DNA of 38,563 bases, taken from Paracoccaceae bacterium (GTDB taxonomy: Bacteria > Pseudomonadota > Alphaproteobacteria > Rhodobacterales > Rhodobacteraceae). A program made the position numbers and the translations under genes. Below the pieces are notes generated by a model. It had not been told where the DNA came from, searched no databases, and worked only from the letters and a program-made list of their open reading frames with translations. The stretch is from contig JAAXIY010000043.1 of the NCBI GenBank assembly GCA_012270125.1, positions 1 to 38,563 of the forward strand, in the 5' to 3' direction. Positions 7,132 to 23,281 of the stretch are shown in pieces (position 1 is the first letter of the stretch; the number at the start of each line of letters is the position of its first letter).

Positions 7132-8088
7132 TCAATTTATTGGATAGTGGCAAGAAACAGCTGACCCATTTTTAGATTCATGAAAAATAGGTGTTTCCTT
7201 AGAGCAGAGCTCCTTTGCAAAAACACACCTCTCACTAAAAGCACATCCGATGGGCGGGTTCAAAATATCAGGCAATTCATAGCCACTTTTTTCATTTAAA
7301 GTTAGAGGTTTTCCAATAACTGGAGCACTATCTGCCAAAAGCTTAGTGTAAGGATGTTTAGGTTTTGAAAAAATTTCTTTTGCTGTTCCAACTTCTACGA
7401 TTGACCCAAAATACATTACAGCCACTCTATCACTTACCGCTTCCACGACTGAAAGATCATGGCTGATAAAAAAATATGTAAGACCAAATTTCTCTTTAAG
7501 CTCTTCCAGCAAATTTAAAACTTGTGCCTGTATGGACACGTCAAGCGCAGATACAGGCTCATCTAACACTAATATTTTTGGCTCAGCTGCCAAAGCTCTT
7601 GCAATACCAATTCGCTGAGCCTGACCGCCGGAAAACTCATGAGGATATCTATCTAAAAAATCTAAGCGCAAATTAACGGCATCAAATAGCTCTTTAATTC
7701 TAGTATCCCTATTTGGTCGCTTCATTCCATGTAGGTTTTTAAGAGGCGCTTCTATAATTTGCCTAATAGTTTTTCTGGGGTTTAGGCTACTTATAGGATC
7801 CTGAAATACATATTGGATTTTTTTCCCAAAAATTTTAGGGTCTGATTTATCAAAAATTTCTCCATCAATTATTATTCTACCGGAGGTAGGTTTCAATAAT
7901 CCAACAAGCATTTTAGCCAACGTTGACTTTCCACAGCCTGATTCACCAACAAGACCAAAAGTCTCTCCCGGTTTTATTTTTAAAGAAACAGTATTAACGG
8001 CTGTTACTTCAAACTTTGATAAACTTAGCGCTCCCTTTCGGGCGGGAAATTTTTTACTAAGTTTATCAAACTCAAGGGATGAAACCAT
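7132..8088 (-). CDS. ABC importer ATP-binding protein, OppF/DppF type
   Basis: 318 residues. ATPase of a peptide/opine/nickel-type importer. Walker A GESGCGKST at 48-56, Q-loop FQDP at 95-98, signature SGGQAQR at 153-159, Walker B LVLDEP at 173-178 and switch His210 are intact. The C-terminal oligopeptide-ABC extension contains C282, C288, C295 and C313, typical of OppD/OppF proteins. It starts 3 bases after the permease-ATPase fusion and is the last gene of a four-gene leftward transporter operon. It ends convergently with uraD, 48 bases away, and I saw no convincing terminator between them. Substrate cannot be read from the ATPase. Confidence 0.92.
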   Translation of the reverse strand: MVSSLEFDKLSKKFPARKGALSLSKFEVTAVNTVSLKIKPGETFGLVGESGCGKSTLAKMLVGLLKPTSGRIIIDGEIFDKSDPKIFGKKIQYVFQDPISSLNPRKTIRQIIEAPLKNLHGMKRPNRDTRIKELFDAVNLRLDFLDRYPHEFSGGQAQRIGIARALAAEPKILVLDEPVSALDVSIQAQVLNLLEELKEKFGLTYFFISHDLSVVEAVSDRVAVMYFGSIVEVGTAKEIFSKPKHPYTKLLADSAPVIGKPLTLNEKSGYELPDILNPPIGCAFSERCVFAKELCSKETPIFHESKNGSAVSCHYPIN

Positions 8089-8091
8089 CTT

Positions 8092-9969: not shown

Positions 9970-10913
9970 ATTTTTATCCGCGGATCTAGCAAGCTTTGAA
10001 TGATATCTACTATTATATTAAACATAACGTAACAGGCTGCTACGAAAACAACCCCACCCTGCACCAATAAAATGTCTCTTTTCAATATGGCCTCCACTAG
10101 CATCCTTCCCACACCTGGCCATTGAAAGACCATCTCTATGTAAACCGCTCCTGAAAGCACAAACCCCGCCTGCACACCGAGTACTGGAATAACGCTCACC
10201 ATGGCCGCCTTTAAAGCGTGCCTCCAAATCACCCTTGTCTCACTTAAGCCTTTAGCTCGGGCTGTTCTAATGAAGTCTTGTCTCAAAACCTCTAACATAG
10301 CTGAACGAGAAAGTCGGGCAATCACGCCCGTGGCTACCACTGATAATGCCACGGCTGGTAAGAATAAATGGCTGAGAAGTGCCGCGATATCCCTCGTCCC
10401 ATATATTGGCCACATCCCAGACACTGGAAACCACCTTAATTGAACTGAAAAGAATAAGATCATCATCATGCCCAGAAAAAATGACGGGATAGAAATTCCG
10501 ATCAGGACAGATAGTGTTATAAGCTTATCAGTTATAGCAAATTGTCGAGATGCAGATAATGCGCCTGCGACCACACCTAAAACTGAACAAAGAACAAAAG
10601 AAACACCAGCCAAAATAAGCGTTGCTCCAAATCTTTCGAGGATTTCATCAAGAACATCTTTGTTTAAAGAAAAACTTCGACCAAAATCGCCCTGGAGCAT
10701 ATTTCCAAGCCAAATAAAGTAGCGCTGGATCATGGGCTTATCTAAACCAAGATCTCTGTTTAATTTTTCAACATTTTCTGGCGTGGCAAATGATCCAAGA
10801 ATGGCTGTTGCAGGATCACCGGGTATCAAGGCCATTATAATGAAAACGATTATGGAAATTCCAATTAGTACTGGTATAGCTGATACAAGTCGTTTGAGGA
10901 TATAACCTATCAT
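9966..10913 (-). CDS. ABC importer permease, DppB/OppB type
   Basis: 315 residues with six probable membrane helices (about 9-31, 97-119, 130-156, 178-200, 235-258, 282-308). The cytoplasmic coupling segment E208-VLRQDFIRTARAKG-222 is the standard contact with the ATPase. It pairs with the permease half of the fusion protein encoded by the next gene, with which it overlaps by four bases. It is separated from the binding-protein gene by 59 bases containing a strong stem-loop. Family: binding-protein-dependent transport permeases for peptides, opines or nickel; the cargo is not determined. Confidence 0.92.
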   Translation of the reverse strand: MIGYILKRLVSAIPVLIGISIIVFIIMALIPGDPATAILGSFATPENVEKLNRDLGLDKPMIQRYFIWLGNMLQGDFGRSFSLNKDVLDEILERFGATLILAGVSFVLCSVLGVVAGALSASRQFAITDKLITLSVLIGISIPSFFLGMMMILFFSVQLRWFPVSGMWPIYGTRDIAALLSHLFLPAVALSVVATGVIARLSRSAMLEVLRQDFIRTARAKGLSETRVIWRHALKAAMVSVIPVLGVQAGFVLSGAVYIEMVFQWPGVGRMLVEAILKRDILLVQGGVVFVAACYVMFNIIVDIIQSLLDPRIKI

Positions 10914-10933
10914 GGTCAGCCCATATTTTTTTG

Positions 10934-10966
10934 TGCCGTAGCCAATGGGAGGTCTTGGCTACGGCA
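10934..10966 (-). other. Strong intercistronic stem-loop between binding-protein and permease genes
   Basis: A perfect 12-bp stem, TGCCGTAGCCAA at 10934-10945 paired with TTGGCTACGGCA at 10955-10966, encloses a 9-base loop. It lies directly after the stop of the substrate-binding protein. In the direction of transcription (leftward) it is followed by C and an A-run, not a T-run, so it is not a classical intrinsic terminator. Such hairpins after binding-protein genes usually protect the upstream mRNA from 3' exonucleases and raise binding protein over membrane subunits; that role is inferred. Confidence 0.75.
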
Positions 10967-10972
10967 TAGTTT

Positions 10973-12547
10973 CTAATTCTTCGTTACACCATCTAGCAAC
11001 AAGAAGAATGATGGTTGCAATGAAAAACTGCTGACTTTATCCGAAGTAACAGCGTTCTGCTTCCAATTTGCAACAAATACCCAAGGGGCATCTTCCTGAA
11101 CGATTGTTTGCATTTCTTGGTACAAACGAGCACGTTCATTTTGATCAGTCGAAGCTCGCGCGGCCTCTAAAAGCTCATCAACTTTAGGATTAGAATAATA
11201 ACCTGAATTGAAACCACCTTTATCTGGCCAAGCTCCCGTCCTAAGGGCAAGAAATGGCAATGTGTCTGGGTCGTTTGTCATCCATGCCATTTCAGCCATA
11301 TCTGCCTTTCCTTCAAGGCCTGGATTAACAACACCGAGGAAAGCATTCCACTCGTAAGTCTCTATTTTAACTTTTAAACCTACTGCTTGAAGATCAGCTT
11401 GTATAGCTGTTCCCATAGCAACTGGATCAAGCATTCCCGAACCGCCTTCTGTTACATAAAAGGTTAGCTCTGCTCCCTCTGCTCCAGCTGCAGCCAAAAG
11501 TTCACGGGCCTTATCTGGATCATAGGGGTACGGCTCAAGACTCTCATTGTATGCCCACGCAAAAGCAGGAGGTGTTGGACCAGCTGCAACTGCAGCCGTA
11601 CCTTCAAGCACATCATTTACAATGGCTTCCTTGTTTATAGCATAATTTGCAGCCTGCCTTACCCTTACGTCAGCAAAAGGACCTTCCTTGGCGTTTAGAA
11701 TTAAAAACCAAACATGGGGACCAGCTTGCTCATGGACAGTATATCCGTCTCCCTGAAACTGACTTAACGCCAATGGTGGAACCTCTACCATTAAGTCTAT
11801 TCCGCCCGCTAACATTTCTGCAGTTCTAGTATTTGCATCAGTTATAGGACGAAAGACCACTGCATTCAGCTTTGGCGCACCTTCCCAATGATCTGAATTT
11901 GCTTCTACAACGACAGCTTCATTAGATCTCCAATCAGCAAACTTAAATGCACCAGTTCCTGACGGATTTTGACCAAAGTCTTTCCCATGTTTCTTTACAG
12001 CTTCTGGTGAAACTATCAAACCTGTTGGGTATGCAAGATTAGATAGAAAGGGTGCATAGGGAGCATTTAAAGTAAACTTAACCGTCATATCATCAACCAC
12101 AGAAACATCAGTAATTGCTGAGAAGAAAAATGATAATGGAAAAGGTCCTGTATCATGATAGGGATGACCATCATCAAGCATCCTATCAAAATTAAACTTC
12201 ACTGCACTCGCGTTCAAAGCAGAACCGTCGTGGAACTTTACGCCACTTCGCAATTTGAAAGTGTATACCGTGCCATCGTCACTTATGGTCCATGAAGTTG
12301 CAAGAGATGGCTCAACTTCCAGAGTGCCATCTTTATAACGAACTAAACCATCATAAATATTCATTAATATGCGAAAATCATTTACCGCTGTCACAGTTGC
12401 TGGATCCATGGATTTTGGTTCAGCAATCTGACCTACGACAAGAACATCGTCGGGTGTTTGTGCGGTTACTGAAATTGCAGAGGTAGCAAAAGCAATTGCC
12501 GCTCCGGCAGCAATTATCGCTCTACGAGAAAACTTCAGCAGTGCCAT
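10973..12547 (-). CDS. ABC importer substrate-binding protein, family 5 (peptide/opine/nickel type)
   Basis: 524 residues from the ATG at 12547, chosen because AAAGGA lies just upstream and the product then begins with a signal peptide: MALLKFSRR, a hydrophobic Ala-rich stretch to about residue 26, and likely cleavage after V-T-A at 29. The longer frame to 12697 runs into the divergent gene and is not credible. The mature protein shows SBP_bac_5 landmarks: LVVGQIAEPKSMDPA near the start, YTFKLRSGVKFHDGS, and an NYAINKEAIV segment. It would capture a solute in the periplasm for the permease genes downstream. Binding specificity is unknown; candidates include small peptides or whatever feeds the catabolic cluster at 14-23 kb. 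Confidence 0.92.
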   Translation of the reverse strand: MALLKFSRRAIIAAGAAIAFATSAISVTAQTPDDVLVVGQIAEPKSMDPATVTAVNDFRILMNIYDGLVRYKDGTLEVEPSLATSWTISDDGTVYTFKLRSGVKFHDGSALNASAVKFNFDRMLDDGHPYHDTGPFPLSFFFSAITDVSVVDDMTVKFTLNAPYAPFLSNLAYPTGLIVSPEAVKKHGKDFGQNPSGTGAFKFADWRSNEAVVVEANSDHWEGAPKLNAVVFRPITDANTRTAEMLAGGIDLMVEVPPLALSQFQGDGYTVHEQAGPHVWFLILNAKEGPFADVRVRQAANYAINKEAIVNDVLEGTAAVAAGPTPPAFAWAYNESLEPYPYDPDKARELLAAAGAEGAELTFYVTEGGSGMLDPVAMGTAIQADLQAVGLKVKIETYEWNAFLGVVNPGLEGKADMAEMAWMTNDPDTLPFLALRTGAWPDKGGFNSGYYSNPKVDELLEAARASTDQNERARLYQEMQTIVQEDAPWVFVANWKQNAVTSDKVSSFSLQPSFFLLLDGVTKN

Positions 12548-12638
12548 TAGTAATCCTTTCCCAATAAATTTATCATAATAAATTGCATTGACGCAAATTA
12601 TCATGATAAAATCAAGAAAATTGTTATAAGGTGACAAT
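12548..12638. promoter_or_regulatory. Divergent promoter with twin 12-bp operator-like repeats
   Basis: 91 bases between the binding-protein gene (leftward) and the DUF1028 gene (rightward). TTATCATGATAA at 12598-12609 is a perfect palindrome; TTATCATAATAA at 12570-12581 matches it at 11 of 12 positions, 28 bases apart. Paired sites one near-integral number of helical turns apart between divergent genes suggest a dimeric repressor or activator. The nearest regulator gene is the GntR/FadR-type protein at 13361-14122, which is the natural candidate; binding is inferred only. Confidence 0.55.
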
Positions 12639-13322
12639 ATGACTTTTTCGGTTCTCACTTTCGACCATAAAACAGGCGTATTTGCTGGTGCGGCCACAAC
12701 CGGCAGCCTTTGCGTAGGCGGTTGGGTCTTACGAGGAGATATCGAATCAGGGATGGTTGCCTCTCAAGGAACTTCGCCCAGTACTTTCTGGCGAGATAAC
12801 GCTTTACGAGAAATGAATAAAGAGAAGTCTTCAAAAGAAACAATTGAGAAGCTTACAGGCGGAGACTCTGGTCGAGAAAAGCGCCAATTAGCGGCAATTG
12901 ATAAAAAGGGGGAACCATTTGGCTTTACTGGTGCAGATAGTGTTCCTTTTTCAGGACATTTAGTAGGAGAAGACTATATTATAGCAGGAAATATGCTTTC
13001 GAACCCATCTGTTTTAAGCGCAATGGGCGACTGTATAAATAAAAGTTACAGTTCTGAAGCTGAAAAAATGCTTGCTATATTACAAGCTGGCCAAAGAGCT
13101 GGAGGTGACAAAAGGGGCATACAATCAGCAGCAATGCTGATCCTTGACCCTGAAAAACCACCTTTAGATCTAAGAGTTGACTATGATGAAAATCCTATAT
13201 TTGCATTAGAAGAATTATGGAAAAGATCCCAAAGGCCACCGTATTCATCTTGGTTGGACGAGGTTCCTATTCTGTCAGACAAAAATAGGAGTGACATGCC
13301 GCAGAAAAATACAGGGACATAG
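12639..13322 (+). CDS. DUF1028 family protein (putative Ntn-hydrolase-like)
   Basis: 227 residues, ATG preceded by AAGGTG five bases upstream. Recognised as DUF1028 by the MTFSVLTFD start, the ATTGSLCVGG region, SQGT at about 43-46, the GHLVGEDYIIAGNML segment in the middle and AGQRAGGDKRGIQSAA near residue 155. DUF1028 proteins are of unknown function and have been compared with N-terminal nucleophile hydrolases; if so, Thr2 exposed by Met removal could be a nucleophile, which is speculation here. No signal peptide. The gene is divergent from a peptide-type ABC importer and convergent with a GntR regulator, a context that suggests intracellular processing of the imported solute. Confidence 0.8.
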   Translation: MTFSVLTFDHKTGVFAGAATTGSLCVGGWVLRGDIESGMVASQGTSPSTFWRDNALREMNKEKSSKETIEKLTGGDSGREKRQLAAIDKKGEPFGFTGADSVPFSGHLVGEDYIIAGNMLSNPSVLSAMGDCINKSYSSEAEKMLAILQAGQRAGGDKRGIQSAAMLILDPEKPPLDLRVDYDENPIFALEELWKRSQRPPYSSWLDEVPILSDKNRSDMPQKNTGT

Positions 13323-13360: not shown

Positions 13361-14122
13361 TTACTCAGCAATAAAGCGGCGAACTATTTCAGCCTCCTGT
13401 TTATGCATTAATGCTTCAGCGATGAGCATGTGAGACTGCATAACTTTGCGGGCTTTTTCTGAATTCCCATCCTGTAAAACCTCTAAAAGTTTTAATTGGT
13501 GCTCTCTGCCTTCTTGCCAAAGCTTCACATTAGGTGGTTCGTATAGTCGCTTATACAAAGTCAAATCAGTTAGTATTTGTGCCATAAAACCTATTATAAA
13601 ACCCAATAATTTATTTTCACCAAATTCAGATAATTTTTGATGAAAAGCTAACGATGCAATGTGCTGCTCACGCTCCTCCTCTGCAGACTTTGAGGGTTGT
13701 GGATATTTGTCGACTAATTGTTTCAGCTGCGAAAGCTGTTCTTTGCTAAGTTTTCCTGCCAAGCTTGCAGCCAGCTCAGGCTCTAAAACTTTTCTCATTT
13801 GATAAATGTCGGCTATTGAGAGATCTTGAAAATAAAAATAGTTTGCCAATAGAGCCCGTGTTCGCTCAACAGAAACCTTGGCAACTATGCTTCCTCCGCC
13901 AGGTCCTGTTTTTGTGGAAATAAGGCCCTGTGCCTCTAAAATTCTCAGCGCCTCTCTAACTGTACCTTTTGATACCCCAAAAAGGTCTATCATTTCACTC
14001 TCATTTGGGAGCTTATCGCCGCTCTTCAGATCTTTTTTAACGACCCATTCTTTGATTTCATCTGCAACCAGAACTGGCCTTGACCTCTTCGTCTTTACAG
14101 GCTCACTAATGCTGCCGTCCAT
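13361..14122 (-). CDS. GntR-family transcriptional regulator, FadR subfamily (FCD domain)
   Basis: 253 residues with GGAGG five bases upstream of the ATG. Winged helix-turn-helix at about 20-85: K37-LPNESEM then F48-GVSKGTVREALRILEAQGLI, the classic GntR recognition helix. The FCD ligand-binding domain spans about 95-245, with candidate metal ligands His161, His208 and His231. Such regulators usually respond to organic acids and control adjacent catabolic or transport genes. Neighbours suggest the ABC importer/DUF1028 promoter and perhaps the catabolic operon at 14.9 kb as targets. An AGAGTT/AACTCT inverted repeat at 14152-14172 upstream of its start could be autoregulatory, at low confidence. 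Confidence 0.92.
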   Translation of the reverse strand: MDGSISEPVKTKRSRPVLVADEIKEWVVKKDLKSGDKLPNESEMIDLFGVSKGTVREALRILEAQGLISTKTGPGGGSIVAKVSVERTRALLANYFYFQDLSIADIYQMRKVLEPELAASLAGKLSKEQLSQLKQLVDKYPQPSKSAEEEREQHIASLAFHQKLSEFGENKLLGFIIGFMAQILTDLTLYKRLYEPPNVKLWQEGREHQLKLLEVLQDGNSEKARKVMQSHMLIAEALMHKQEAEIVRRFIAE

Positions 14123-14259: not shown

Positions 14260-14817
14260 TCAACGAAGGCTTTCTGCCATATCATTCCAAACACTCTGAA
14301 ATTTAATTTTCATATTTGAGACAATGAAGCGATCTATAAAACGGATTTCAGAAAAAGCCTCTCCGTTTAACCAGGTCCCTTCCAAGTATCCACTACAAAA
14401 GACTGTAGCCTCAAGCCCATTGAAAGATGTATCAAAACTTTCAAATGATTTTTTTACGGATTTGTATCTTTTACCAGACCATAAAATCAATTCCTCTAAC
14501 TTTTTGAATTTTACACCACCAGGAAAAACCATTGTAAAATCTTTATCTAAATACTGCTTTGCTAGCTCTAGATCTCTTTGCTCCATAGCGCTCAAGTATT
14601 CTCTAACTAAAATATCTGGTTGTTTTGGGGCTGCAGCTGGCGTTCGAGTAACACGGCCACGCATATAATTGGTAGCATGCACTTCCTTTATAGTTACAAT
14701 CACTTGATCTGGATGAGCTCCAATGGTCGAAGAGGCAGCATCCGTAACACGTTCAGCTAACAACTGACGCGTATCTTTCTCGTAGCCCTTTATTAAAGTG
14801 CATTCAATCATTGGCAT
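14260..14817 (-). CDS. Fusion of 4-oxalocrotonate tautomerase-like domain and NTF2/SnoaL-like domain
   Basis: 185 residues, GGAG upstream of the ATG. Residues 1-58 resemble 4-oxalocrotonate tautomerases: Met-Pro start (Pro2 becomes the catalytic N-terminal proline), M-I-E-C-T-L-I-K-G-Y, and the V-T-D-A helix before IGAHPDQVIVTIKEV. A short Ala/Pro linker (about 59-66) leads to an NTF2/SnoaL-type alpha-beta cone domain at 67-185 (REYLSAMEQRDLELAKQYL, DKDFTMVFPGG, then a C-terminal sheet with FIDRFIV). It is not a standard architecture that I recognise. It diverges from the catabolic operon starting at 14922, which suggests a linked keto-enol isomerisation role. The tautomerase call is secure in motif but not in substrate. 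Confidence 0.75.
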   Translation of the reverse strand: MPMIECTLIKGYEKDTRQLLAERVTDAASSTIGAHPDQVIVTIKEVHATNYMRGRVTRTPAAAPKQPDILVREYLSAMEQRDLELAKQYLDKDFTMVFPGGVKFKKLEELILWSGKRYKSVKKSFESFDTSFNGLEATVFCSGYLEGTWLNGEAFSEIRFIDRFIVSNMKIKFQSVWNDMAESLR

Positions 14818-14921
14818 TTGTTGTCTCCATGTACGAACGTAATAGGTTTGCTTAATTTTGTACTACCTCAAATATAATTGAAAGATATTTCCATTGTGTA
14901 TTTTTATGCTACGTTTATTCA
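14818..14921. promoter_or_regulatory. Divergent promoter region, tautomerase fusion versus catabolic operon
   Basis: 104 bases. It holds TACGAACGTA at 14832-14841 (four-base arms, TACG and CGTA, around AA) and ATTTTGTACT at 14855-14864, a ten-mer that also occurs in the uraH/uraD intergenic region at 6534-6543. No Shine-Dalgarno sequence is visible just before the rightward ATG at 14922, so the operon may start as a leaderless or weakly initiated message. Promoter hexamers are not distinguishable with confidence. Confidence 0.35.
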
Positions 14922-16196
14922 ATGAATACGCTTGCTCAAAAAATAATTGCTAACGCATGTAATAAGGTTTCTGTAGAGCCAGGTGAAATTGTGGTGTGCA
15001 AAGTAGATTTAGCCATGATTCATGACTCCGGCGGGCCTCGCCGGGTCAAGCCTATTCTAGAAAAACTTAATCGAAAAGTTTGGGATAAAGAGAAAGTTGT
15101 AGTTGTCACAGATCACTACGTGCCAATAGAAAGTGAAGAAACAAGAGCCATTCAAGAGCTGACACAAAAATGGGTATTGGATCAGGACATAAATAATTTT
15201 TACGACCAACAAGGTATCTGTCACGTTGTTGTTCCAGAAAAAGGGCATTTAAAGCCTGGTATGTTTTGCGTAGGTGGCGATAGCCACTCTCCAACTGGTG
15301 GAGCATTTGGGGCCTATATGTTTGGAGTTGGCGCAACTGAAATGGCTGGTGTCTTAGCAACCGGTGAAATTTGGCTAAAAGTTCCAGAAACTATATTTAT
15401 CCGTTGGAAAGGGAAGTTAGATAACCTTGTCACCGCTAAAGATATGATGCTAGCAACATGCCGTCAAATTGGCATGGGTGGGGGCCAGTATCAAGCAATT
15501 CAATATATTGGAGAAGCAATCTACAATCTTTCAATTCAAGAAAGAATGACCATGTCAAATATGGCCGCAGAACTTGGCGCTCAAACTGGATTAATAGCCC
15601 CAGACAAGAAAACCGTTGACTATATAGAAAGATCTGACGGGCAAGTTCCTAAAAATTGGATGGAATTTTGTATAGATACGCCTACTTCTAATGCAACGGT
15701 TTTTGAGTTTGACGCATCAAGCCTATCGCCTCAAATTGCAGCACCGCACTCTCCAGAAAATGCAGAAAACGCGGAAGAATTTTCAAATACCGTTTTTGAT
15801 ATAGCTTATATCGGCGCCTGTACTGGAGCTAAATATGTCGATTTAGCTGCTGCAGCTTCAGTTTTAAAAGGACGCAGAATTGCTTCAAGTGTGTCTCTCA
15901 AAGTAGCGCCTGCCAGCCTGCAAGATGAAAAGAAAGCATTGAACGATGGCACTTTAAAAATTTTACAAGATGCTGGTGCGGAATTTCTACCAAACTCATG
16001 CGGAATATGTGCAGGATATGGGAAAGATAGACTTACAGAAGGACAAGTTTGTTTATCTTCGACAGCAAGAAATTTTCAAGGCCGAATGGGGGCTCCATCT
16101 TCAAGAGTTTATCTTGCATCACCCTATACTGTTGCAGCGTCAGCAGTTGTAGGAAAAATGATAGACCCTAGGGAGCTAGATATACTAAATGGGTAG
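14922..16196 (+). CDS. Aconitase-superfamily hydro-lyase, large subunit (LeuC/DmdA-like)
   Basis: 424 residues, the size of LeuC-type large subunits of two-component hydro-lyases. [4Fe-4S] ligands are present: Cys300 in YIGACTGAK, Cys360 and Cys363 in NSCGICAGYG. DSHSPTGGAFGAYMFGVGATEM at about 120-141 and TARNFQGRMG near 382-391 are further family landmarks. The usual GSCTNGR around the first cysteine reads GACTGAK here, and the second motif is SCGICAG instead of PGCGxCLG, so it is unlikely to be the leucine-pathway enzyme. With the small subunit and the following lyase it resembles the 2,3-dimethylmalate dehydratase/lyase set of nicotinate fermenters. Probable role: hydration of an alkylated maleate-type acid; substrate unproven. 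Confidence 0.82.
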   Translation: MNTLAQKIIANACNKVSVEPGEIVVCKVDLAMIHDSGGPRRVKPILEKLNRKVWDKEKVVVVTDHYVPIESEETRAIQELTQKWVLDQDINNFYDQQGICHVVVPEKGHLKPGMFCVGGDSHSPTGGAFGAYMFGVGATEMAGVLATGEIWLKVPETIFIRWKGKLDNLVTAKDMMLATCRQIGMGGGQYQAIQYIGEAIYNLSIQERMTMSNMAAELGAQTGLIAPDKKTVDYIERSDGQVPKNWMEFCIDTPTSNATVFEFDASSLSPQIAAPHSPENAENAEEFSNTVFDIAYIGACTGAKYVDLAAAASVLKGRRIASSVSLKVAPASLQDEKKALNDGTLKILQDAGAEFLPNSCGICAGYGKDRLTEGQVCLSSTARNFQGRMGAPSSRVYLASPYTVAASAVVGKMIDPRELDILNG

Positions 16197-16683
16197 ACTT
16201 TGGCTTTTTGAGGAAACTATAAACACTGACGTTTTAGCTCCCGGTTTTTACATGAAATCTCCAATAGACGAACTTTCAAAACACTGTCTAGAAGCCATTC
16301 GACCAGAGTTTGCTTCCAATGTAAGAAAGGGAGATGTTATCTTAGCAGGTGAAAATATGGGAGTAGGTTCTTCTAGAGAGCAAGCGGCAGAGGTTTTGAA
16401 GTTTCTTGGTGTATCATGCATAATTGCAAAAAGTTTTGCAGGTATTTTTTACCGCAACGCCATAAACTTGGGTTTACCTGTTTTTACCTTACCAAGCGAA
16501 CCTAGCCTACCCAAACAATTTGTTGACGGATCATTTGTAAATTTTGACTTCGACAGCACCACACTTAATTTGGAACAGCCAAGCCTTCAGGTCAAATTAG
16601 ATCCTTTGCCAAAATTTTTGCGGGAACTTATAACTGATGGTGGCTTGGTATCACATCTTGAAAAACGTTTTAGTGAAAAGTAA
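16189..16683 (+). CDS. Aconitase-superfamily hydro-lyase, small subunit (LeuD/DmdB-like)
   Basis: 164 residues, the swivel-domain subunit. Its ATG overlaps the large-subunit stop by eight bases (ATGGGTAG), so synthesis is coupled. The family signature is clear: NTDVLAPGFYM near the start, GENMGVGSSREQAAEVL at about 54-70 (the substrate-binding GxGSSRE loop) and AKSFAGIFYRNAINLGLPVF at about 83-102. The short length and GVGSSREQA version fit the isopropylmalate/homoaconitate/dimethylmalate dehydratase group and not full-length aconitase. Works with the preceding gene product. Confidence 0.85.
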   Translation: MGRLWLFEETINTDVLAPGFYMKSPIDELSKHCLEAIRPEFASNVRKGDVILAGENMGVGSSREQAAEVLKFLGVSCIIAKSFAGIFYRNAINLGLPVFTLPSEPSLPKQFVDGSFVNFDFDSTTLNLEQPSLQVKLDPLPKFLRELITDGGLVSHLEKRFSEK

Positions 16684-16692
16684 GGGCTGATT

Positions 16693-17541
16693 ATGCTAAA
16701 ATCCATAATTTCGAGAGATATACTATTAGCTCCTGGTATCTACGATGCGCTGTCAGGGCTTATAGCCGAACAAGCAGGAGCGCGAGCTGTTTATCTTTCA
16801 GGAGCTAGCATAGCTTATACACGTTTTGGAAGATCAGATGTTGGACTTGTTTCAGCCTCAGAAGTACACGACACTCTCGCAGCAGTAACTGATAGAATAC
16901 AAATTCCTGTCATTGTTGATGCAGATACTGGGTTCGGTAATGCGTTAAATGTTCAGCGAACTATTCGTAACTTTGAGCGGGCTGGAGCTGCCGCTATTCA
17001 AATAGAAGATCAATCATTTCCAAAAAGATGTGGGCATCTTGATGGAAAAACTTTGATATCCAAAGATGAGATGGTTGGCAAAATTAAAGCTGCTATTGAT
17101 GCTCGAAAAGAGACCAACACTTTAATTATTGCAAGAACAGATGCTAGAGGTGTTGAAGGCCTTTCCGAAGCAATCGACAGAGCGCAAGCATACCAAGAGG
17201 CAGGGGCTGACATTCTATTTATCGAGGCGCCTCATTCAATTGATGAAATGAAATTAATTAGAAAATCGTTTGGTGAAGATATTCCTCTTTTGGCAAATAT
17301 GGTTGAAGGAGGAAAAACACCTATAAAAACAGCAAATGATTTGAAAAGTTTAGGATTTAATATCGTTATATTTCCTGGAGGCGCTGTCAGGGCAGCCACT
17401 TTCCAATTGCAACAATATTATGCTGGGCTAATAGAAAACGGCAGTACTTTAGAGTTTTCCGATAGCATGCATAATTTTGATAGTCTAAATTCTGTTATTG
17501 GGACACCTGAACTGCTAAAATTAGGAAAAAAATACGAATGA
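16693..17541 (+). CDS. Isocitrate lyase/PEP mutase-superfamily lyase (Dml/PrpB-like)
   Basis: 282 residues, starting 9 bases after the small subunit. TIM-barrel lyase: Mg-binding Asp76 and Asp78 in VDADTGFGN, Glu105, and the catalytic loop K111-R-C-G-H115, where Cys113 is the usual general acid-base of carbon-carbon lyases in this superfamily. IARTDAR follows at about 147-153. Members cleave 2-methylisocitrate, 2,3-dimethylmalate or related alpha-hydroxy acids to pyruvate or succinate plus a second acid. Its place right after a hydratase pair favours cleavage of the hydration product, as with 2,3-dimethylmalate lyase giving pyruvate and propionate. PrpB is an alternative, but no methylcitrate synthase is adjacent. 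Confidence 0.85.
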   Translation: MLKSIISRDILLAPGIYDALSGLIAEQAGARAVYLSGASIAYTRFGRSDVGLVSASEVHDTLAAVTDRIQIPVIVDADTGFGNALNVQRTIRNFERAGAAAIQIEDQSFPKRCGHLDGKTLISKDEMVGKIKAAIDARKETNTLIIARTDARGVEGLSEAIDRAQAYQEAGADILFIEAPHSIDEMKLIRKSFGEDIPLLANMVEGGKTPIKTANDLKSLGFNIVIFPGGAVRAATFQLQQYYAGLIENGSTLEFSDSMHNFDSLNSVIGTPELLKLGKKYE

Positions 17542-17568
17542 ATTCTGCAAAGTTTACCGGGGCTTAAT

Positions 17569-19230
17569 ATGGACGCAGTGACGCTTGCCATTCTAAAGGG
17601 CAGATTGGAGCAAATCGCCGATGAAATGGATGCCACATTATTTCGTTCGGCCTTTAATCCCATAATTGCTGAGGCCCATGATGCAAGCCATGGTATTTAT
17701 GATAGCCAAACAGGAGAAACTCTAATCCAAGGAAAGTCTGGATTGCCAATTTTTGTAGGCGTTATGGCTTTTGCAGTTAAGGCAGTAATTGAAAAAGTAT
17801 CAGCAGGAGATGATCTTAACGAAGGGGATGTTTATATATTCAACGATCCTTATGACGGGGGAACCCACCTTTCTGATTTTCGTTTGGTTAAGCCTGTTTT
17901 TAGAAATGGTGCTGTTTTTTGTTATATTGCTTCTGTAGGCCATTGGCATGATGTGGGCGGCAATGTGCCTGGAAATTATAATCCTGAGGCAACCGAGAGT
18001 TTTCAGGAGGGAATTTTAATTCCGCCAGTAAAATTATTTAAACGGGGTCAAATTAATCAAGATATAGTAGATATCCTGTCTGCAAATTCACGATTACCTA
18101 ACTCTCTATACGGAGACCTAAACGGCCAAATAAACGCTCTCGACTTAGGCGAAGAGCGATTACACTCACTTCTAGATGAATATACAGAAGAAAATATTTC
18201 AAATGCGTTGAAAGAATTATGTGAAAGAGCCGAAAAAATGATGCGGCAAAACATAAAAGCTTTACCAAACGAAACTATTTCGATCGAAGACTATCTTGAT
18301 AATGATGGTGTTACAGATGATCCACTAACCCTTGCGGTCGATTTAACCATAAAAAATGATAAAATGGTTATTGATTTTAGCAGATCAAGTAAAGCCTGTG
18401 CTGGGCCAGTCAATATCTCTAAATCAACAACAATTGCGGCAACGTATGTTGCTTTGAAACATATTTTCACAGACGTTCCCGCAAATGCTGGTGTATTAAA
18501 GCCTGTTGAATTTATCATACCTGAAGACAGCTTTTTGAGCGTACGTGCTCCAAAACCGGTTGGTGGCTATACTGAAACAATTTTAAGACTGATCGACGTA
18601 ATTTTTCAAGCTTTTCAAAACTCGGCAAGCGATAAGGTAAATGGATGTGCATATGGAACAATCAATGCATTATCACTCTCTGGATATCGAAAAAATGGAA
18701 GTAGATGGGTTATGTTTTCATTCTTTGGTGGTGGTCACGGTGGCCACCCTGATGGTGATGGATTAAATCATGGCAATGCCCCAATTTCTACCGCAACCAT
18801 TCCACCGCTTGAAATTCTTGAGGCGGCTTATCCTGTTCAATTCACCAAGTGGGGTCTGAGACCTGACTCAGGTGGAAAAGGAAAGCATCGGGGTGGTTTG
18901 GGCGCTATTTACGAAATAGAGTTGCTTGAGGAACAGGCTAATGCATTTCTGTTTGGAGAACGTGGAAAATTTGCTCCTAAAGGGGTTTTAGAAGGTGAAG
19001 CAGGTGCATTGAACCAATTCTTTTATGGTTATAAAGCGGATGATCCTCCAGAAAAACAATCGTCACCACCTTTAAAGTCTAAAATAACAGGAATTAGTTT
19101 AAAAAGAGGGCAGCGTGTAAGGCTTGAAACTCCCGGTGGTGGTGGTTTTGGCAGAGCTTCTGAAAGACCTTTGGAAAAATTAAACTACGATCTAGAGCAA
19201 GGGTATATAACGGAGACAAAAAATGACTGA
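17569..19230 (+). CDS. hyuB: Hydantoinase/oxoprolinase family subunit B (HyuB)
   Basis: 553 residues, ATG preceded by CCGGGG. Family start MDAVTLAILKGRLEQIADEMDATLFRSAFNPII and the downstream EAHDASHGIYD, FNDPYDGGTHLSDF, GHWHDVGG and GGGHGGHPDGDG segments identify the HyuB/oxoprolinase-beta family. With HyuA it forms ATP-dependent cyclic amidohydrolases (N-methylhydantoinase, 5-oxoprolinase) or, in other branches, acetone/acetophenone carboxylases. It lies 27 bases after the lyase gene and overlaps hyuA by eight bases (ATGACTGA). The true ring substrate is unknown; a hydantoin, lactam or cyclic imide is likely given the rest of the operon. Confidence 0.92.
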   Translation: MDAVTLAILKGRLEQIADEMDATLFRSAFNPIIAEAHDASHGIYDSQTGETLIQGKSGLPIFVGVMAFAVKAVIEKVSAGDDLNEGDVYIFNDPYDGGTHLSDFRLVKPVFRNGAVFCYIASVGHWHDVGGNVPGNYNPEATESFQEGILIPPVKLFKRGQINQDIVDILSANSRLPNSLYGDLNGQINALDLGEERLHSLLDEYTEENISNALKELCERAEKMMRQNIKALPNETISIEDYLDNDGVTDDPLTLAVDLTIKNDKMVIDFSRSSKACAGPVNISKSTTIAATYVALKHIFTDVPANAGVLKPVEFIIPEDSFLSVRAPKPVGGYTETILRLIDVIFQAFQNSASDKVNGCAYGTINALSLSGYRKNGSRWVMFSFFGGGHGGHPDGDGLNHGNAPISTATIPPLEILEAAYPVQFTKWGLRPDSGGKGKHRGGLGAIYEIELLEEQANAFLFGERGKFAPKGVLEGEAGALNQFFYGYKADDPPEKQSSPPLKSKITGISLKRGQRVRLETPGGGGFGRASERPLEKLNYDLEQGYITETKND

Positions 19231-21277
19231 GAAAATAGTCATTGGGGTAGATGTTGGAGGAACATTTACCGACATTTTAGCCTTTGATGAGAAAACCGGA
19301 AAGGTTTCAGTTGCGAAAACACCCTCTACCAAAGAAGATCAATCCAAAGGTTTCTTGGAGGGCATACTCAAGACCACACAAGATTTATCGTTAGTTTCTA
19401 CTATTATTCACGGAACTACCGTGGCTACCAATGCTCTTTTAGAGAGAAAGGGAGCAAAAACTGGAATTATTACAACCAAAGGTTTTCGTGACGTTCTAGA
19501 AATGCGTCGCCGCGATCGTCCCAAGACTTGGGGTCTTTGGGGAACGTTTGCCCCAGTTGTAGAACGAAAAAATAGATTAGAGGTTAGTGAAAGAACTTTA
19601 GCAGATGGAACTATTAGAGTTTCAGTTGATGAAAAAGAAGTTGAAAATTGTGCAAAAATTTTGATGGAAAATGGATGTTCTGCTGTCTGCCTGTTTTTTA
19701 TCAATGGATATGCTAACTCAGAGAATGAAAAAAGGGCAGCAAAGGTTCTTCGATCAATCTGGCCCAATAACCATGTAAGTATTGCTACTGAAATTCTGCC
19801 CGAAATTAGAGAATTTGAACGTTGCTCTACAGCAACTTTAAACGCTTATTTGCAACCACCAGTAGCGAATTATCTAGAGCGATTAGAAACTAGAATATCT
19901 AATGAAAAAAAGAAGTCTGAAATTTTAATAGTGCAATCTAATGGTGGTGTGATGTCCGTTGAAACGGCAAAATCTCTTCCCATAAGAACAGCCCTATCTG
20001 GACCAGCAGCAGGAGTTGTTGCCGCGCGCCAAATTGCCAAGGCTGCTGGTTTTGAAAATATTATAACTGGAGATATGGGCGGAACATCTTTTGATATTTC
20101 TTTAATAGCAAATAATCAAAACATGCTCACCTCACAGGCTAATATTGATTTTGGGATGACCATAAGAACACCAATGATCGAGATGACGACCATTGGCGCA
20201 GGTGGGGGTTCTATAGCTCACATAGACTCAACAGGGCTTCTTGAAATTGGTCCTGAGTCTGCTGGCTCAGATCCTGGCCCAGTATGCTATGGCTTGGGAA
20301 ACAGTCGTCCGACTGTTACCGATGCCAATTTAGTATTAGGAAGAATTGATGCAAGCAACCCTATTGGTGGAAAACAAAAATCTTTGGATTACGAAGCTGC
20401 AACTCAGGCCATAGATAATCATATCGCAAAAAAACTGGATCTTTCTATTCACGATGCAGCGGAAGCAATAATTAAAGTTGCAAATGCAAAAATGGCGGGA
20501 GCCATCAGATTAATCTCAATAGAACGCGGATATGATCCCAAAAAATTTGCCTTAATGCCTTTTGGCGGTGGCGGCGCTCTACATGCTGGAGCATTAATGA
20601 AGGATATAGGCTTATCTGCCTCTATAGTCCCTCGTTATCCAGGCGTTAATTCTGCCCTTGGATGTATTATGTCTGATCTGCGTCATGATGAGGTCAAAAC
20701 ATTAAATGTTTCTTTAGCAGAATTGGACTGTGAAAAACTGGCAAGAACCATCGAAGAAATCACATTGGAGTCAAAAAAAATAATTGATCGGTCTAAAGCT
20801 TCACTAACAAAAAAAGAGCGAATTATTGAGCTTGATATGTTGTACTTAGGGCAAACACATGCAGTTCCAGTATCTATTTCAGACAACTTAAAAAACTTAA
20901 CGAAGAAGAATATAGAAAAAGCCTTCTTAGAAAGCTACACACGTGCCTACAGTAGACCACTTGAAGGAATAAGTATTAGAATTCTAAACTTGAGAGTATC
21001 TATGGTTGGGGTGCGGCCAGACATAGATTTATCTATTTTTTCCAAAGGTGAGCGTGCAAAGGAAATTAGTAGTTGTGTGATCTCAAATCAAAAAGTTTAT
21101 TCGAATGGAGCCTGGCATCAGGCTAAAATTTTCGATCGCTTACTTTTACCCAATGGCTCTATAATTTCAGGCCCAGCTCTACTTACGCAACCTGACGCTA
21201 CAATCTTTATTGAACCCGAAATGAACGCAAAAGTTGATGTCTATGGTAATATAATTTTGAGTGAAGAGGTGTTTTAG
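19223..21277 (+). CDS. hyuA: Hydantoinase/oxoprolinase family subunit A (HyuA)
   Basis: 684 residues. N-terminal ATP-binding actin-like fold: GVDVGGTFTDILAFD at about 8-22, HGTTVATNALLERKGAKTG at about 64-82, then LSGPAAGVVAAR and GDMGGTSFDIS in the middle, and a C-terminal region with FGGGGALHAG. These are the hallmarks of hydantoinase A / oxoprolinase alpha. It supplies the ATP-dependent activation in ring opening with HyuB. The RRRDRPKTWGLWGT segment at about 93-107 is typical of the N-methylhydantoinase-like branch. The gene overlaps hyuB and is followed by a hydrolase starting immediately after its stop. Confidence 0.92.
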   Translation: MTEKIVIGVDVGGTFTDILAFDEKTGKVSVAKTPSTKEDQSKGFLEGILKTTQDLSLVSTIIHGTTVATNALLERKGAKTGIITTKGFRDVLEMRRRDRPKTWGLWGTFAPVVERKNRLEVSERTLADGTIRVSVDEKEVENCAKILMENGCSAVCLFFINGYANSENEKRAAKVLRSIWPNNHVSIATEILPEIREFERCSTATLNAYLQPPVANYLERLETRISNEKKKSEILIVQSNGGVMSVETAKSLPIRTALSGPAAGVVAARQIAKAAGFENIITGDMGGTSFDISLIANNQNMLTSQANIDFGMTIRTPMIEMTTIGAGGGSIAHIDSTGLLEIGPESAGSDPGPVCYGLGNSRPTVTDANLVLGRIDASNPIGGKQKSLDYEAATQAIDNHIAKKLDLSIHDAAEAIIKVANAKMAGAIRLISIERGYDPKKFALMPFGGGGALHAGALMKDIGLSASIVPRYPGVNSALGCIMSDLRHDEVKTLNVSLAELDCEKLARTIEEITLESKKIIDRSKASLTKKERIIELDMLYLGQTHAVPVSISDNLKNLTKKNIEKAFLESYTRAYSRPLEGISIRILNLRVSMVGVRPDIDLSIFSKGERAKEISSCVISNQKVYSNGAWHQAKIFDRLLLPNGSIISGPALLTQPDATIFIEPEMNAKVDVYGNIILSEEVF

Positions 21278-21278
21278 C

Positions 21279-21884
21279 ATGTCGTTTGATCCCAAAAAGG
21301 CAGCTGTTTTAATTGTTGATTTGCAAAATGATTTTCTTGACCCAAAAGGTGCCTATGGAAGAGCAGGACAAACAAGCCCAGAAATTGCCGCTTTGCCATC
21401 GCGTGTTTTGCCTTTGCTTAATACGATTAGAAAGGCTGGAGGGTGGGTTATATCAACACAATTTACGCTTGTGCCGGGCAAAGCCGGCGAACCGTTCATA
21501 TCACAACATCTAAAGAGACTACGTCCTTTTTTAGGAAAAGGTGATTTCGCCCCAGCGTCATGGGGAAACTCACTGGTTGATAGCCTTCAACCGGCAGACA
21601 TAACTGTGGAAAAAGTTGCCTATTCAGCATTTTACCAAACACGAATGGAATATTCACTTTCAAAAGCTGGCATTAAAACTTTGTTCATATGTGGAATCGT
21701 AACTAATGGCGGTGTTGCATCAACCGTTCGTGATGCGCACGTCAGAGATTTTCATACGATAACTTTAGAAGATGGATGCGCTGCATTTTCACAGGAAACA
21801 CACAAATTGGCCATTCAATCTCTTGAAACGGTAGGGGAAGTGATGAAAATACACGATGCTATTTCTCTAATAAACGGAAACTGA
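21279..21884 (+). CDS. Isochorismatase-fold hydrolase lacking the nucleophilic cysteine
   Basis: 201 residues from the ATG at 21279, with GAAGAGGTG upstream; a GTG at 21261 inside hyuA was rejected. The cysteine-hydrolase fold is clear: Asp14 in LIVDLQNDF and Lys112 in VEKVAYSAF are the first two members of the D-K-C triad. The third should be the Cys in a TxxCV motif, but here the segment reads C138-G-I-V-T-N-G-G145-V-A-S-T, so Gly145 occupies the nucleophile position. True isochorismatases such as PhzD also have Gly there. The position after hyuA would suit an N-carbamoyl or half-amide hydrolase, but the missing Cys argues for a different hydrolysis or for a binding role. Confidence 0.88.
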   Translation: MSFDPKKAAVLIVDLQNDFLDPKGAYGRAGQTSPEIAALPSRVLPLLNTIRKAGGWVISTQFTLVPGKAGEPFISQHLKRLRPFLGKGDFAPASWGNSLVDSLQPADITVEKVAYSAFYQTRMEYSLSKAGIKTLFICGIVTNGGVASTVRDAHVRDFHTITLEDGCAAFSQETHKLAIQSLETVGEVMKIHDAISLINGN

Positions 21885-21886
21885 TT

Positions 21887-23281
21887 TTGGCTGAAGTAAT
21901 TGTAGATGATGGCTTTTCTGCAGCAGTAGAAATTGACTGTTTAATAATAGGTGGGGGAGCAGCCGGGCTAACCGCAGCTTTAGCGGCGGCGGAAGACGGC
22001 GCTTCAGTTCTGATAGCCGAGCGCGAGAAACAATTGTCTGGATCTACAGCCCTATCATCGGGACTAATTCCAGCAGCTGAAACAAGGGCACAAAAAAGAC
22101 AAAATATCAATGATAACAAGAAAGCTTTCTTTGAAGATATTATGGGGAAAAATAATAACTCCGCTGACCCCAAGCATGTAAATAATTGCGTTGAAAATAT
22201 AAATTTAGCCCTTGATTGGTTAGAGGAAAAACATGGAATTCAATTTCACGTCCTAGAAGATTTTTTATACCCAAATCACACAAGTTTTCGTATGCATGCC
22301 GTTCCAGAAGTCACTGGGGAAGGCTTGATTAACTATCTAGAAAAAGCAGCTGCAGGACTCGATATTTATATAAGCTGTAACCTTCAAATAATTAATTTAG
22401 TCAGATCAAATTCTGGAAAAATTTTGGGTGCTGTTGGTAAAAGACCGGACGGTAAAATTGAAAACATATCTGCACAGAATACTATTTTAGCCTGTAATGG
22501 ATATGGTGGGAACCCTACATTAATATCAGAAAATATTCCTGAAATGAAAGATGCTATTTATTTTGGGCACACAGGAAACCAAGGCGAGGCGGTTATCTGG
22601 GGTCGCCAACTAGATGCAAAAATTGGACACCTATCAGGATACCAAGGGCATGGCTCTGTGGCTCACCCACATGGAGTTCTGGTAACTTGGGCTTTGATGA
22701 TGGAGGGGGGTATTCAAATAAATAAAAAAGGTGTTAGGTTTTCAAATGAACATAAGGGCTATTCAGAACAGGCCGTCAACGTATTGTCACAACCAGAGAA
22801 AATTGCTTTTAACATTTTTGATGAAAGGCTTTGTGAGCTTGGCCGGAAATTTGACGATTTTCGAAAAGCAGAAAATGCCGGTGCTCTTGTAAAAGGTTTA
22901 ACTGTTAAAGAGTTGGCAACCAATATTGGAGTGAATGAAACCTCATTGTCTGAAACTATGCTAAACATCGATGCTTTAGCAGAACAGAACGCTCGGGATA
23001 GTTTTGGGCGAGAATTCAACATCAAATCTCGTCTTAAACCACCTTATTACGCTGTCAGAGTTACAGGTGCACTGTTTCATACCCAGGGAGGCCTGTTAGT
23101 AGACAAATATGCACGGGTTATCCAGGAAAGTGGTTCAATTATTCAAGGTCTGTATGCCTGTGGCGGCGCAGCCTGCGGTGTCTCGGGACCGGATGTTTCT
23201 GGTTATCTTTCTGGCAATGGTCTTTTGACAGCCATAAGTCTGGGCTACGTAGCTGGAAAATCTATTAAAAGAATTGAATAA
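21887..23281 (+). CDS. FAD-dependent dehydrogenase, fumarate reductase/KstD/TcuA-like flavoprotein
   Basis: 464 residues from a TTG start at 21887, two bases after the previous stop; no ATG or GTG fits before the FAD motif. The dinucleotide-binding GGGAAG is at 22-27, followed by SGSTALSSG at 51-59 and a C-terminal FAD segment GLYACGGAACGVSGPDVSGYLSGNGLL. This is the FAD_binding_2 family, including fumarate reductase, ketosteroid dehydrogenase and tricarballylate dehydrogenase, which act on alpha-beta carbon bonds next to a carbonyl. No signal peptide or flavocytochrome domain is visible. It ends the operon and may create the double bond that the aconitase-like enzyme then hydrates; that order is inferred. 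Confidence 0.87.
   Translation: MAEVIVDDGFSAAVEIDCLIIGGGAAGLTAALAAAEDGASVLIAEREKQLSGSTALSSGLIPAAETRAQKRQNINDNKKAFFEDIMGKNNNSADPKHVNNCVENINLALDWLEEKHGIQFHVLEDFLYPNHTSFRMHAVPEVTGEGLINYLEKAAAGLDIYISCNLQIINLVRSNSGKILGAVGKRPDGKIENISAQNTILACNGYGGNPTLISENIPEMKDAIYFGHTGNQGEAVIWGRQLDAKIGHLSGYQGHGSVAHPHGVLVTWALMMEGGIQINKKGVRFSNEHKGYSEQAVNVLSQPEKIAFNIFDERLCELGRKFDDFRKAENAGALVKGLTVKELATNIGVNETSLSETMLNIDALAEQNARDSFGREFNIKSRLKPPYYAVRVTGALFHTQGGLLVDKYARVIQESGSIIQGLYACGGAACGVSGPDVSGYLSGNGLLTAISLGYVAGKSIKRIE

Follow-up and report, generated by a model that had tools for sequence, protein, structure and literature searches.

What does the compact operon at positions 14922-23281 of Paracoccaceae bacterium contig JAAXIY010000043.1 do for its host, given that it combines genes of ring-hydrolase families with genes that probably serve acid metabolism? 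The window, i.e., the whole stretch of DNA that was analyzed, comprises the first 38563 bases of this contig (C49) in a genome of 2.16 Mb and 85 contigs. Seven intact open reading frames, all on the forward strand, follow each other in the order LeuC-like, LeuD-like, lyase, HyuB, HyuA, isochorismatase-fold protein and flavoprotein, with consecutive spacings of -8, +9, +27, -8, -17 (+1 if an ATG start is used) and +2 bases, and all seven families were assigned via Pfam and NCBIfam. The single-direction operon with these families described in the first-pass annotation, which was made by a model from the letters, was thus confirmed by coordinates, intactness and Pfam/NCBIfam matches alike. On balance, we favor the view that the operon encodes a two-part catabolic pathway in which a small cyclic amide is ring-opened and the acid obtained is cleaved to common metabolites. 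From the families present we infer a substrate class, an order of steps and products as follows: HyuAB would hydrolyze the ring of a small cyclic amide at the expense of ATP, most likely that of a cyclic imide of the succinimide or maleimide type, and the isochorismatase-fold protein would act on the ring-opened product. The substrate of the second part would be the resulting substituted C4 dicarboxylic acid, in which the flavoprotein would set or rearrange a double bond, the LeuCD-type hydratase would add water to yield a 2- or 3-alkylmalate, and the lyase would release, by retro-aldol cleavage, a shorter carboxylic acid together with a 2-oxo acid that is most likely pyruvate. A tautomerase/SnoaL protein, or elsewhere a PrpD-type enzyme or a racemase-like protein, may help with isomers. 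A diacid-processing end consisting of desaturation, hydration and retro-aldol cleavage is proposed because of the families and because the operon yielded no conserved enzyme for deamination; for the latter reason a cyclic imide is also favored over a hydantoin.

The gene set is conserved well beyond the window. Using the isochorismatase-fold protein as bait and one genome per species, 92 pattern matches yielded 71 loci, for the most part from Alphaproteobacteria, and completeness was counted in the 50 loci with a flank long enough for the entire operon. All seven genes were found on one strand in 30 of these 50 loci, and the neighbors of the bait were HyuB (47), HyuA (47), lyase (46), flavoprotein (44), LeuC (34) and LeuD (34). 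Since the gene order recurs in distant genera, often with 4-base overlaps, the arrangement goes beyond chance. In a second sample of 289 genomes of the class, a HyuB search at E ≤ 1e-180 detected orthologues in 23 genomes; the 22 orthologues other than that of the window all have HyuA in their surroundings, and fewer of them the isochorismatase (19), the lyase (15), LeuD (11), LeuC (10) or the flavoprotein (10). Ten of the 12 HyuB genomes lacking an adjacent flavoprotein possess it elsewhere, as do four of the seven lacking an adjacent lyase with respect to the latter. Probes for HyuB, isochorismatase, flavoprotein and lyase matched 23, 22, 30 and 36 genomes, respectively, with all four in 19 genomes, and every pair was enriched (Fisher p 3e-18 to 2e-29 over the 289 genomes, kinship ignored). 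The isochorismatase-fold protein was also found on 30 plasmid records; six of the eight that were opened carry HyuB, HyuA, isochorismatase, lyase and flavoprotein together with LeuCD or PrpD in altered orders, no flavoprotein match lay within the examined stretch of a Paraburkholderia plasmid, and neither a flavoprotein nor a lyase match lay within that of a Tistrella plasmid. The carriers comprise marine Rhodobacteraceae, other Alphaproteobacteria, a few beta- and gammaproteobacterial genomes and large plasmids. The complete loci and the four-probe enrichment are in line with the earlier expectation that the seven families stay together in relatives; the contrary outcome named there, a gene set not conserved in relatives, was not found. 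Operon copies in assemblies titled Oceanobacillus (L043) and Mesoflavibacter (L070) group with the alphaproteobacterial ones, and these assemblies are possibly mislabelled or contaminated. On Tistrella mobilis plasmid pTM2 (L144:9663-14202), HyuB-HyuA-isochorismatase is followed by an acyl-CoA dehydrogenase, a CaiB-type CoA-transferase and LeuC'-LeuD', a pair of the bacterial type discussed below. Replacement of flavoprotein and lyase by acyl-CoA dehydrogenase and CoA-transferase in genus g35 (Tistrella, judging by plasmid pTM2) was considered and rejected because in the three g35 genomes with a pTM2-like layout both flavoprotein and lyase sit elsewhere in the genome.

Two halves can be distinguished in the gene set, termed ring-opening half (HyuB, HyuA and isochorismatase) and acid half (LeuCD, lyase and flavoprotein), which in genome G262 lie on different contigs (L130 and L154, respectively). 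Genome G073 (L164) lacks HyuAB and displays the order GntR-Liv transporter-LeuC-LeuD-lyase-isochorismatase-PuuE-PuuE-flavoprotein, i.e., a trio of a second isochorismatase-family protein and two polysaccharide-deacetylase/PuuE-family proteins takes the place of HyuAB in the operon; this trio or parts of it adjoin the lyase or the flavoprotein in three further loci (L168, L177 and L169). In the PDB, PuuE allantoinase gave the highest score for the first PuuE-type protein (110.5 bits), and as the hydrolase falls under the PuuE equivalog cut-off (133.4 as compared to 424.6 bits), it is PuuE-like only. The accompanying isochorismatase keeps the amidase cysteine (TSGCVRA, 4/4 aligned) and has N-carbamoylsarcosine amidohydrolase (113.5 bits) as its closest relative, ahead of maleamate amidase (97.5 bits). 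We refer to HyuB or the isochorismatase-fold protein with glycine at the cysteine position (Gly-type) as module A and to the PuuE-type protein or the isochorismatase with cysteine as module B. Stappia indica, Sulfitobacter pontiacus and Nisaea denitrificans are culturable carriers of module A. Within the 289 genomes, the first PuuE-type protein occurs in 19, the module B isochorismatase in 17 and both in 15. At the chosen cut-offs, 21 of the 30 flavoprotein genomes have module A and nine have module B, none having both or neither; the 36 lyase genomes comprise 21 with module A, 13 with module B, none with both and two with neither (G033 and G040), which at the genus level (n = 29) corresponds to 17, 10 and two for A, B and neither. 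Mutual exclusion of the modules has a p of about 0.2 over all 289 genomes, not significant by itself, and of 5e-8 among the lyase-bearing genomes, which are partly related to each other; since significance is confined to the latter, a test on trees is useful support. In the lyase tree (80 A and 10 B rows) the module label requires seven changes, at least four of them forced by supported branches, and in the flavoprotein tree (82 A and 9 B rows) six, at least three of them forced; the B label is somewhat clustered in the lyase tree (3/500 shuffles equally low), and A labels were assigned by locus without a genome-by-genome check for absent B. It thus seems that one acid half has repeatedly been combined with unrelated ring-opening modules, whether these were replaced or the acid half itself was transferred.

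The apparent exchange of modules bears directly on the function of HyuAB. The case for HyuAB as the opener of a cyclic amide, as had been suggested from the window, draws its strongest evidence from the unrelated PuuE-type hydrolases that stand in for HyuAB elsewhere, and ring opening by HyuAB or by PuuE-type hydrolases is well supported by gene context. According to the parts of the published description used here, HxnM is a cyclic imidase of Aspergillus nicotinate breakdown and belongs to the wider family of PuuE, its nearest structural homologue being HpPgdA, whose closest characterized relative is PuuE (PMC9304392). HyuB (17569..19230, strand +; PF02538, 561 bits) and HyuA (19223..21277, strand +; ATP-binding; PF05378, PF01968 and PF19278) are the two subunits of an enzyme of the ATP-dependent hydantoinase/oxoprolinase/caprolactamase group. 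Residues were counted here and below over the respective protein of the window and those called genes of the 71 loci whose length exceeded 75% of that of the window gene. HyuB D38, H100, D103 and H125, taken by motif as the metal tetrad D41, H99, D102 and H124 of CapB, are kept in 60/60 rows, and HyuA D10 (59/59 filled rows) and D284 (61/61) were taken by motif as CapA D11 and D295. As far as the sections of the caprolactamase paper used here go, CapAB is likewise a two-subunit ATP-dependent lactam hydrolase, and its metal and ATP-site residues, which match those found here, are needed for activity (PMC8453981). The operon enzyme differs in that it lies far under the CapA and CapB equivalog cut-offs (505.3 and 294.6 as compared to 1000) and in its different pathway. 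The best PDB match of HyuA is N-methylhydantoinase 7hk5 (406.8 bits). A second HyuAB cluster, about 30-33% identical, was observed on contig C39 of genome G000 (L148:4392-11299), where it is accompanied by a HisC-like aminotransferase, an EutA/arylmalonate-decarboxylase-like protein and a 448-amino acid protein at an MmgE/PrpD match; this set is uncharacterized.

The isochorismatase-fold protein (21261..21884, strand +; PF00857) requires a revision of its earlier interpretation. Its listed start is the GTG at 21261, and close orthologues begin where ATG 21279 lies. Upon alignment to RutB and triuret hydrolase, the nucleophilic cysteine of the amidases is replaced by Gly151 in 69/69 aligned rows, and K118 (69/69 rows) and D20 (68/68 filled rows) are kept. 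Hence, the statement of the first-pass annotation that this hydrolase removes the nitrogen is not upheld, while the remainder of its scheme, opening of an imide-like ring followed by desaturation, hydration and retro-aldol cleavage, agrees with the pathway proposed here; the absent cysteine had not been mentioned in it. The AlphaFold model (predicted local distance difference test score, pLDDT, of 91.4) is nearest to biuret hydrolase (VIA Z 22.0, root-mean-square deviation (rmsd) 2.9, 193 aligned), and RutB and triuret hydrolase score only slightly lower (VIA Z 20.8-22.0 for the three), as compared to a VIA Z of 17.5 (rmsd 3.3, 179 aligned) for PhzD. The combination of D20, K118 and Gly151 is that of the true isochorismatases PhzD and EntB, and D20 presumably corresponds to the aspartate with a catalytic role in these enzymes; by sequence and VIA rankings, however, the protein is nearer to biuret and triuret hydrolase and RutB, and no tie of the operon to aromatic biosynthesis was seen. 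Two speculative roles come to mind for the Gly-type protein: like isochorismatase, it may hydrolyze an enamine- or enol-like product, or it may assist a half-amide which is cleaved by its own neighboring carboxylate. In a more specific scheme, a cyclic imide, for instance a dialkylmaleimide derived from tetrapyrroles, would be opened at the expense of ATP, the cysteine-less protein would then be a vinyl- or enamide-type hydrolase (or make use of a substrate carboxylate), pyruvate would be the end product, and the ATP-dependent and ATP-free modules would be evolutionary alternatives for one substrate class; as a whole, this scheme seems rather unlikely. Dialkylmaleimides from tetrapyrroles would fit as one candidate substrate among others.

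The most serious competitor, though a clearly less probable one, is a cyclic ureide, e.g., a 5-substituted hydantoin, that HyuAB would convert to a ureido acid, from which the isochorismatase-fold protein or its counterpart with cysteine would remove the carbamoyl or urea group before the skeleton enters the acid half. In keeping with this, the enzymes to which the isochorismatase-fold protein is closest in sequence and fold act on triuret, biuret and ureidoacrylate; the greater proximity of the module B isochorismatase to N-carbamoylsarcosine amidohydrolase than to maleamate amidase, the fact that PuuE is an allantoinase, the best PDB match of HyuA and the hydantoin-racemase-like proteins in some loci also agree with a ureide. 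Yet hydantoins give amino acids, and the operon shows no conserved deaminating enzyme that would feed LeuCD and the lyase. Moreover, the one racemase-like protein examined, an Asp/Glu/hydantoin-racemase family protein (L024:1793-2557), has other residues at both cysteine positions that we take to be catalytic in hydantoin racemase. Relatives were observed near the operon in L023, L025, L026 and L080 and twice in Neorhizobium (L140). More doubtful still is a lactam resembling 5-oxoproline, oxindole or piperidone, from which HyuAB would generate an enamine or amino acid; the Gly-type isochorismatase would next protonate a C=C bond and hydrolyze an enamine or enol ether, in the manner of a true isochorismatase. 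Caprolactamase and oxoprolinase are among the HyuAB relatives, and in the parts of the source used here the isochorismatase PhzD likewise has glycine where RutB has cysteine (PMC10213629); against a lactam, the interchangeable module B, with an allantoinase/imidase-type hydrolase and a relative of cysteine amidases, fits an amide or ureide that remains after opening.

Returning to the two-part pathway, the first two genes of the operon encode the putative hydratase of its acid half. The large LeuC/DmdA-type subunit (14922..16196, strand +) exceeded the cut-offs of NCBIfam hacA_fam and PRK00402, the listed LeuC, LEU2 and HacA equivalogs were not reached (leuC 253.9 as compared to 560.25, LEU2 369.3 as compared to 610.65), and the Fe-S cysteines C300, C360 and C363 were present in 44/44 rows. 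The small LeuD/DmdB-type subunit (16189..16683, strand +) matched the LeuD/DmdB family TIGR02087 with 157.7 bits (cut-off 108.95). Its substrate loop reads YMKS; the YMK motif is common in relatives, its third residue is not invariant, and the loop lysine was therefore rejected as proof of an extra carboxylate in the substrate. Housekeeping leuC, leuD and leuB sit on contig C77, where leuC has an equivalog score of 799.9, and the operon LeuC is 34% identical to this leuC, so that LeuCD of the operon is unlikely to be the leucine enzyme. The archaeal/DmdB-like LeuC of the window type is 32-35% identical to the bacterial-type LeuC', which accompanies the pathway in Sulfitobacter, Azospirillum, Tistrella and L123; LeuC' proteins share 62-73% identity with each other and 54-57% with the housekeeping leuC of this genome. 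In other loci, MmgE/PrpD fills or accompanies the hydratase slot, and since this slot holds two distant LeuCD subfamilies or MmgE/PrpD, a hydration/dehydration step seems integral to the pathway. A second complete leuC/leuD-type pair, apart from leuCDB, was observed on contig C7 of genome G000 (L147:2393-4418) beside an alpha/beta hydrolase and a LysR regulator.

The lyase (16693..17541, strand +; PF13714) belongs to the isocitrate-lyase/PEP-mutase superfamily and carries the KRCGH motif at residues 111-115; D76, D78, C113, H115, E178 and N202 were kept in 60/60 rows. Its ANMVEGGKTP motif resembles ANMIEGGKTP of petal death protein (1zlp), which we take to cleave 2-alkylmalates, whereas PrpB (1o5q/1ujq) has ANITEFGATP; with KRCGH and EGGxTP instead of the EFGxTP of PrpB, the lyase carries a 2-alkylmalate-lyase signature. 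Dml (3fa3) was matched with 165 bits. The earlier assumption of a hydratase-lyase ending of the DmdAB/Dml type gains support from these family matches and from the separate housekeeping leuCDB, and may hold as far as can be judged from sequence. Extra PEP-mutase/lyase paralogues were noticed beside the lyase or the lyase-flavoprotein pair (L162:10881-11723 and L076:4265-5170), one set including an AtuA-like gene. It could be argued that the operon is a loose neighborhood, in which leucine or methylcitrate metabolism employs LeuCD and the lyase while the Hyu genes have an unrelated task: the best NCBIfam match of the lyase is prpB (300.3 bits, below the cut-off of 354.4), no other match of this lyase kind was detected in this genome at E ≤ 1e-40, and PrpD-family genes are present elsewhere in it. 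This is very improbable in view of the separate leuCDB in the same genome, the strong genome-wide co-occurrence and the re-assembly of the set in other orders and on plasmids. A role of HyuAB as ATP-dependent carboxylase of the acetone or acetophenone carboxylase type, building a carboxylic acid rather than opening a ring, is just as implausible, for although superfamily and metal-ligand positions are common to both, the operon has no extra carboxylase subunit, scores are far under the acetophenone carboxylase equivalogs and PuuE-type hydrolases substitute for HyuAB.

The last gene of the operon encodes an FAD_binding_2 flavoprotein (21887..23281, strand +; PF00890) with the fold of urocanate reductase, flavocytochrome c and 3-ketosteroid dehydrogenases. 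Its AlphaFold model (pLDDT 92.2) is nearest to urocanate reductase 6t86 (VIA Z 45.0, rmsd 1.9, 442 aligned), followed by flavocytochrome c and 3-ketosteroid dehydrogenases (Z about 40-42, and about 40-41 for the latter). Tyr292 occupies the position of Fcc3 Arg402, being aligned with the tyrosine of the R402Y mutant 1jrz, and since the catalytic arginine of fumarate reductase is thus absent, the protein is not a plain enzyme of the succinate/fumarate type. Tyr292 and Tyr440 are present in 58/58 filled rows and Tyr128 is also conserved; these three residues presumably match the active-site tyrosines of KstD. The equivalog cut-off of the tricarballylate dehydrogenase TcuA was missed (154.3 as compared to 369 bits).

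A number of observations weigh against the two-part pathway. At least one gene is missing from 20 of the 50 loci, with only LeuCD absent in 11 and only the flavoprotein in four, and the counts over the 289 genomes depend on E-value cut-offs of our choice and on the top-scoring candidates per genome; for example, the adjacent flavoprotein of G132 falls under the cut-off and is not counted. Regarding the exchange of modules, family f80 has both, though in different genera, and module B lies within about 5 kb of the lyase in only six of 13 genomes, on the lyase contig (within 20.4 kb) in nine and on other contigs in four. The lyase is absent from eight genomes with module B proteins and four with module A proteins, two genomes have the lyase with neither module, and lateral transfer of the lyase or the flavoprotein would also yield repeated label changes in their trees. 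With respect to the substrate, PuuE is closer to the examined module B proteins than any imidase found in these searches is, and relatives of the PuuE and N-carbamoylsarcosine types suit a hydantoin as well as an imide. Lastly, loss of the amidase cysteine leaves nitrogen release in module A without an assigned agent, and the flavoprotein, lacking the fumarate reductase arginine, may act on the neutral ring before opening and not on the diacid.

Three known routes provide precedents for parts of the proposed pathway. Nicotinate fermentation by Eubacterium barkeri involves 2,3-dimethylmaleate hydratase DmdAB and 2,3-dimethylmalate lyase Dml. The operon shares the hydratase families (LeuC/LeuD-DmdB type) and the KRCGH lyase superfamily, encoded adjacently, but it has no B12 mutase, enamidase or methylitaconate isomerase, and HyuAB is predicted to open the ring instead. 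In the N-methylhydantoin (creatinine) pathway, ATP-dependent HyuAB acts together with N-carbamoylsarcosine amidohydrolase; HyuA, HyuB and an isochorismatase-fold protein are likewise united here, but the latter has no cysteine, and hydratase, lyase and flavoprotein are found in place of sarcosine oxidation. Microbial cyclic-imide metabolism proceeds via an imidase and then a half-amidase to a dicarboxylate, with HxnM/HxnN of Aspergillus as an example according to the parts of the publication used here (PMC9304392). Imide opening followed by nitrogen release would be common to both, as module B has PuuE-type hydrolases and a relative of isochorismatase-family amidases; in module A, by contrast, HyuAB would take the place of the imidase, and a desaturation-hydration-cleavage half is added. 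Searches of open-access papers for the gene combination, for degradation of maleimide or hematinic acid, for dimethylmaleate together with hydantoinase and for imidase/half-amidase routes brought up no description of such an operon. Thus, the parts are of known families and the logic appears to resemble that of the three routes, while no description of their combination was found in the open-access papers searched.

Upstream of the operon and divergent from it lies a gene for a 4-oxalocrotonate-tautomerase/SnoaL-like (DUF4440) fusion (14260..14817, strand -; PF01361 and PF14534), to which the earlier annotation did not refer and which is a probable accessory of the pathway. Orthologues occur at some place in the locus in 14 of the 71 loci and immediately ahead of HyuB in two Sulfitobacter plasmids. 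The divergent intergenic region (14818..14921) is presumed from gene layout to hold the operon promoter; promoter- and terminator-like sites at the operon showed no excess over shuffled sequence, and Rfam and tRNA scans gave no matches. A possible regulator is the GntR/FCD protein encoded at 13361..14122 (strand -; PF00392 and PF07729), a close orthologue of which adjoins the operon in only one other genome, of the same genus (L018 and L136, counted as one because of identical lyase rows); a different GntR-UTRA regulator accompanies the operon in many other lineages. On this flank, genes for GntR/FCD, DUF1028, an Opp/Dpp-type ABC transporter, OHCU decarboxylase and xanthine dehydrogenase are found farther out, and monomeric isocitrate dehydrogenase is encoded on the other flank. 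The DUF1028 gene (12639-13322) is located beside the transporter (7132-12697), in which permease and ATPase are fused in one gene (8092-9969); this block is common to the window and L136 and, as a whole, stands beside none of the other opened operon copies. A substrate inference from the transporter was dropped since its type varies by lineage (Liv-type ABC, TRAP, TctC, other ABC and Opp/Dpp).

Taken together, the operon suggests that a widespread nitrogen-containing compound is broken down by a route of which the searched papers gave no description, and it reveals a family of cysteine-less isochorismatase-fold proteins in a fixed metabolic context. As an ATP-consuming and an ATP-free opener occur beside one and the same acid half, the rings attacked by the two modules should be identical or alike, which provides a handle on the substrate class.

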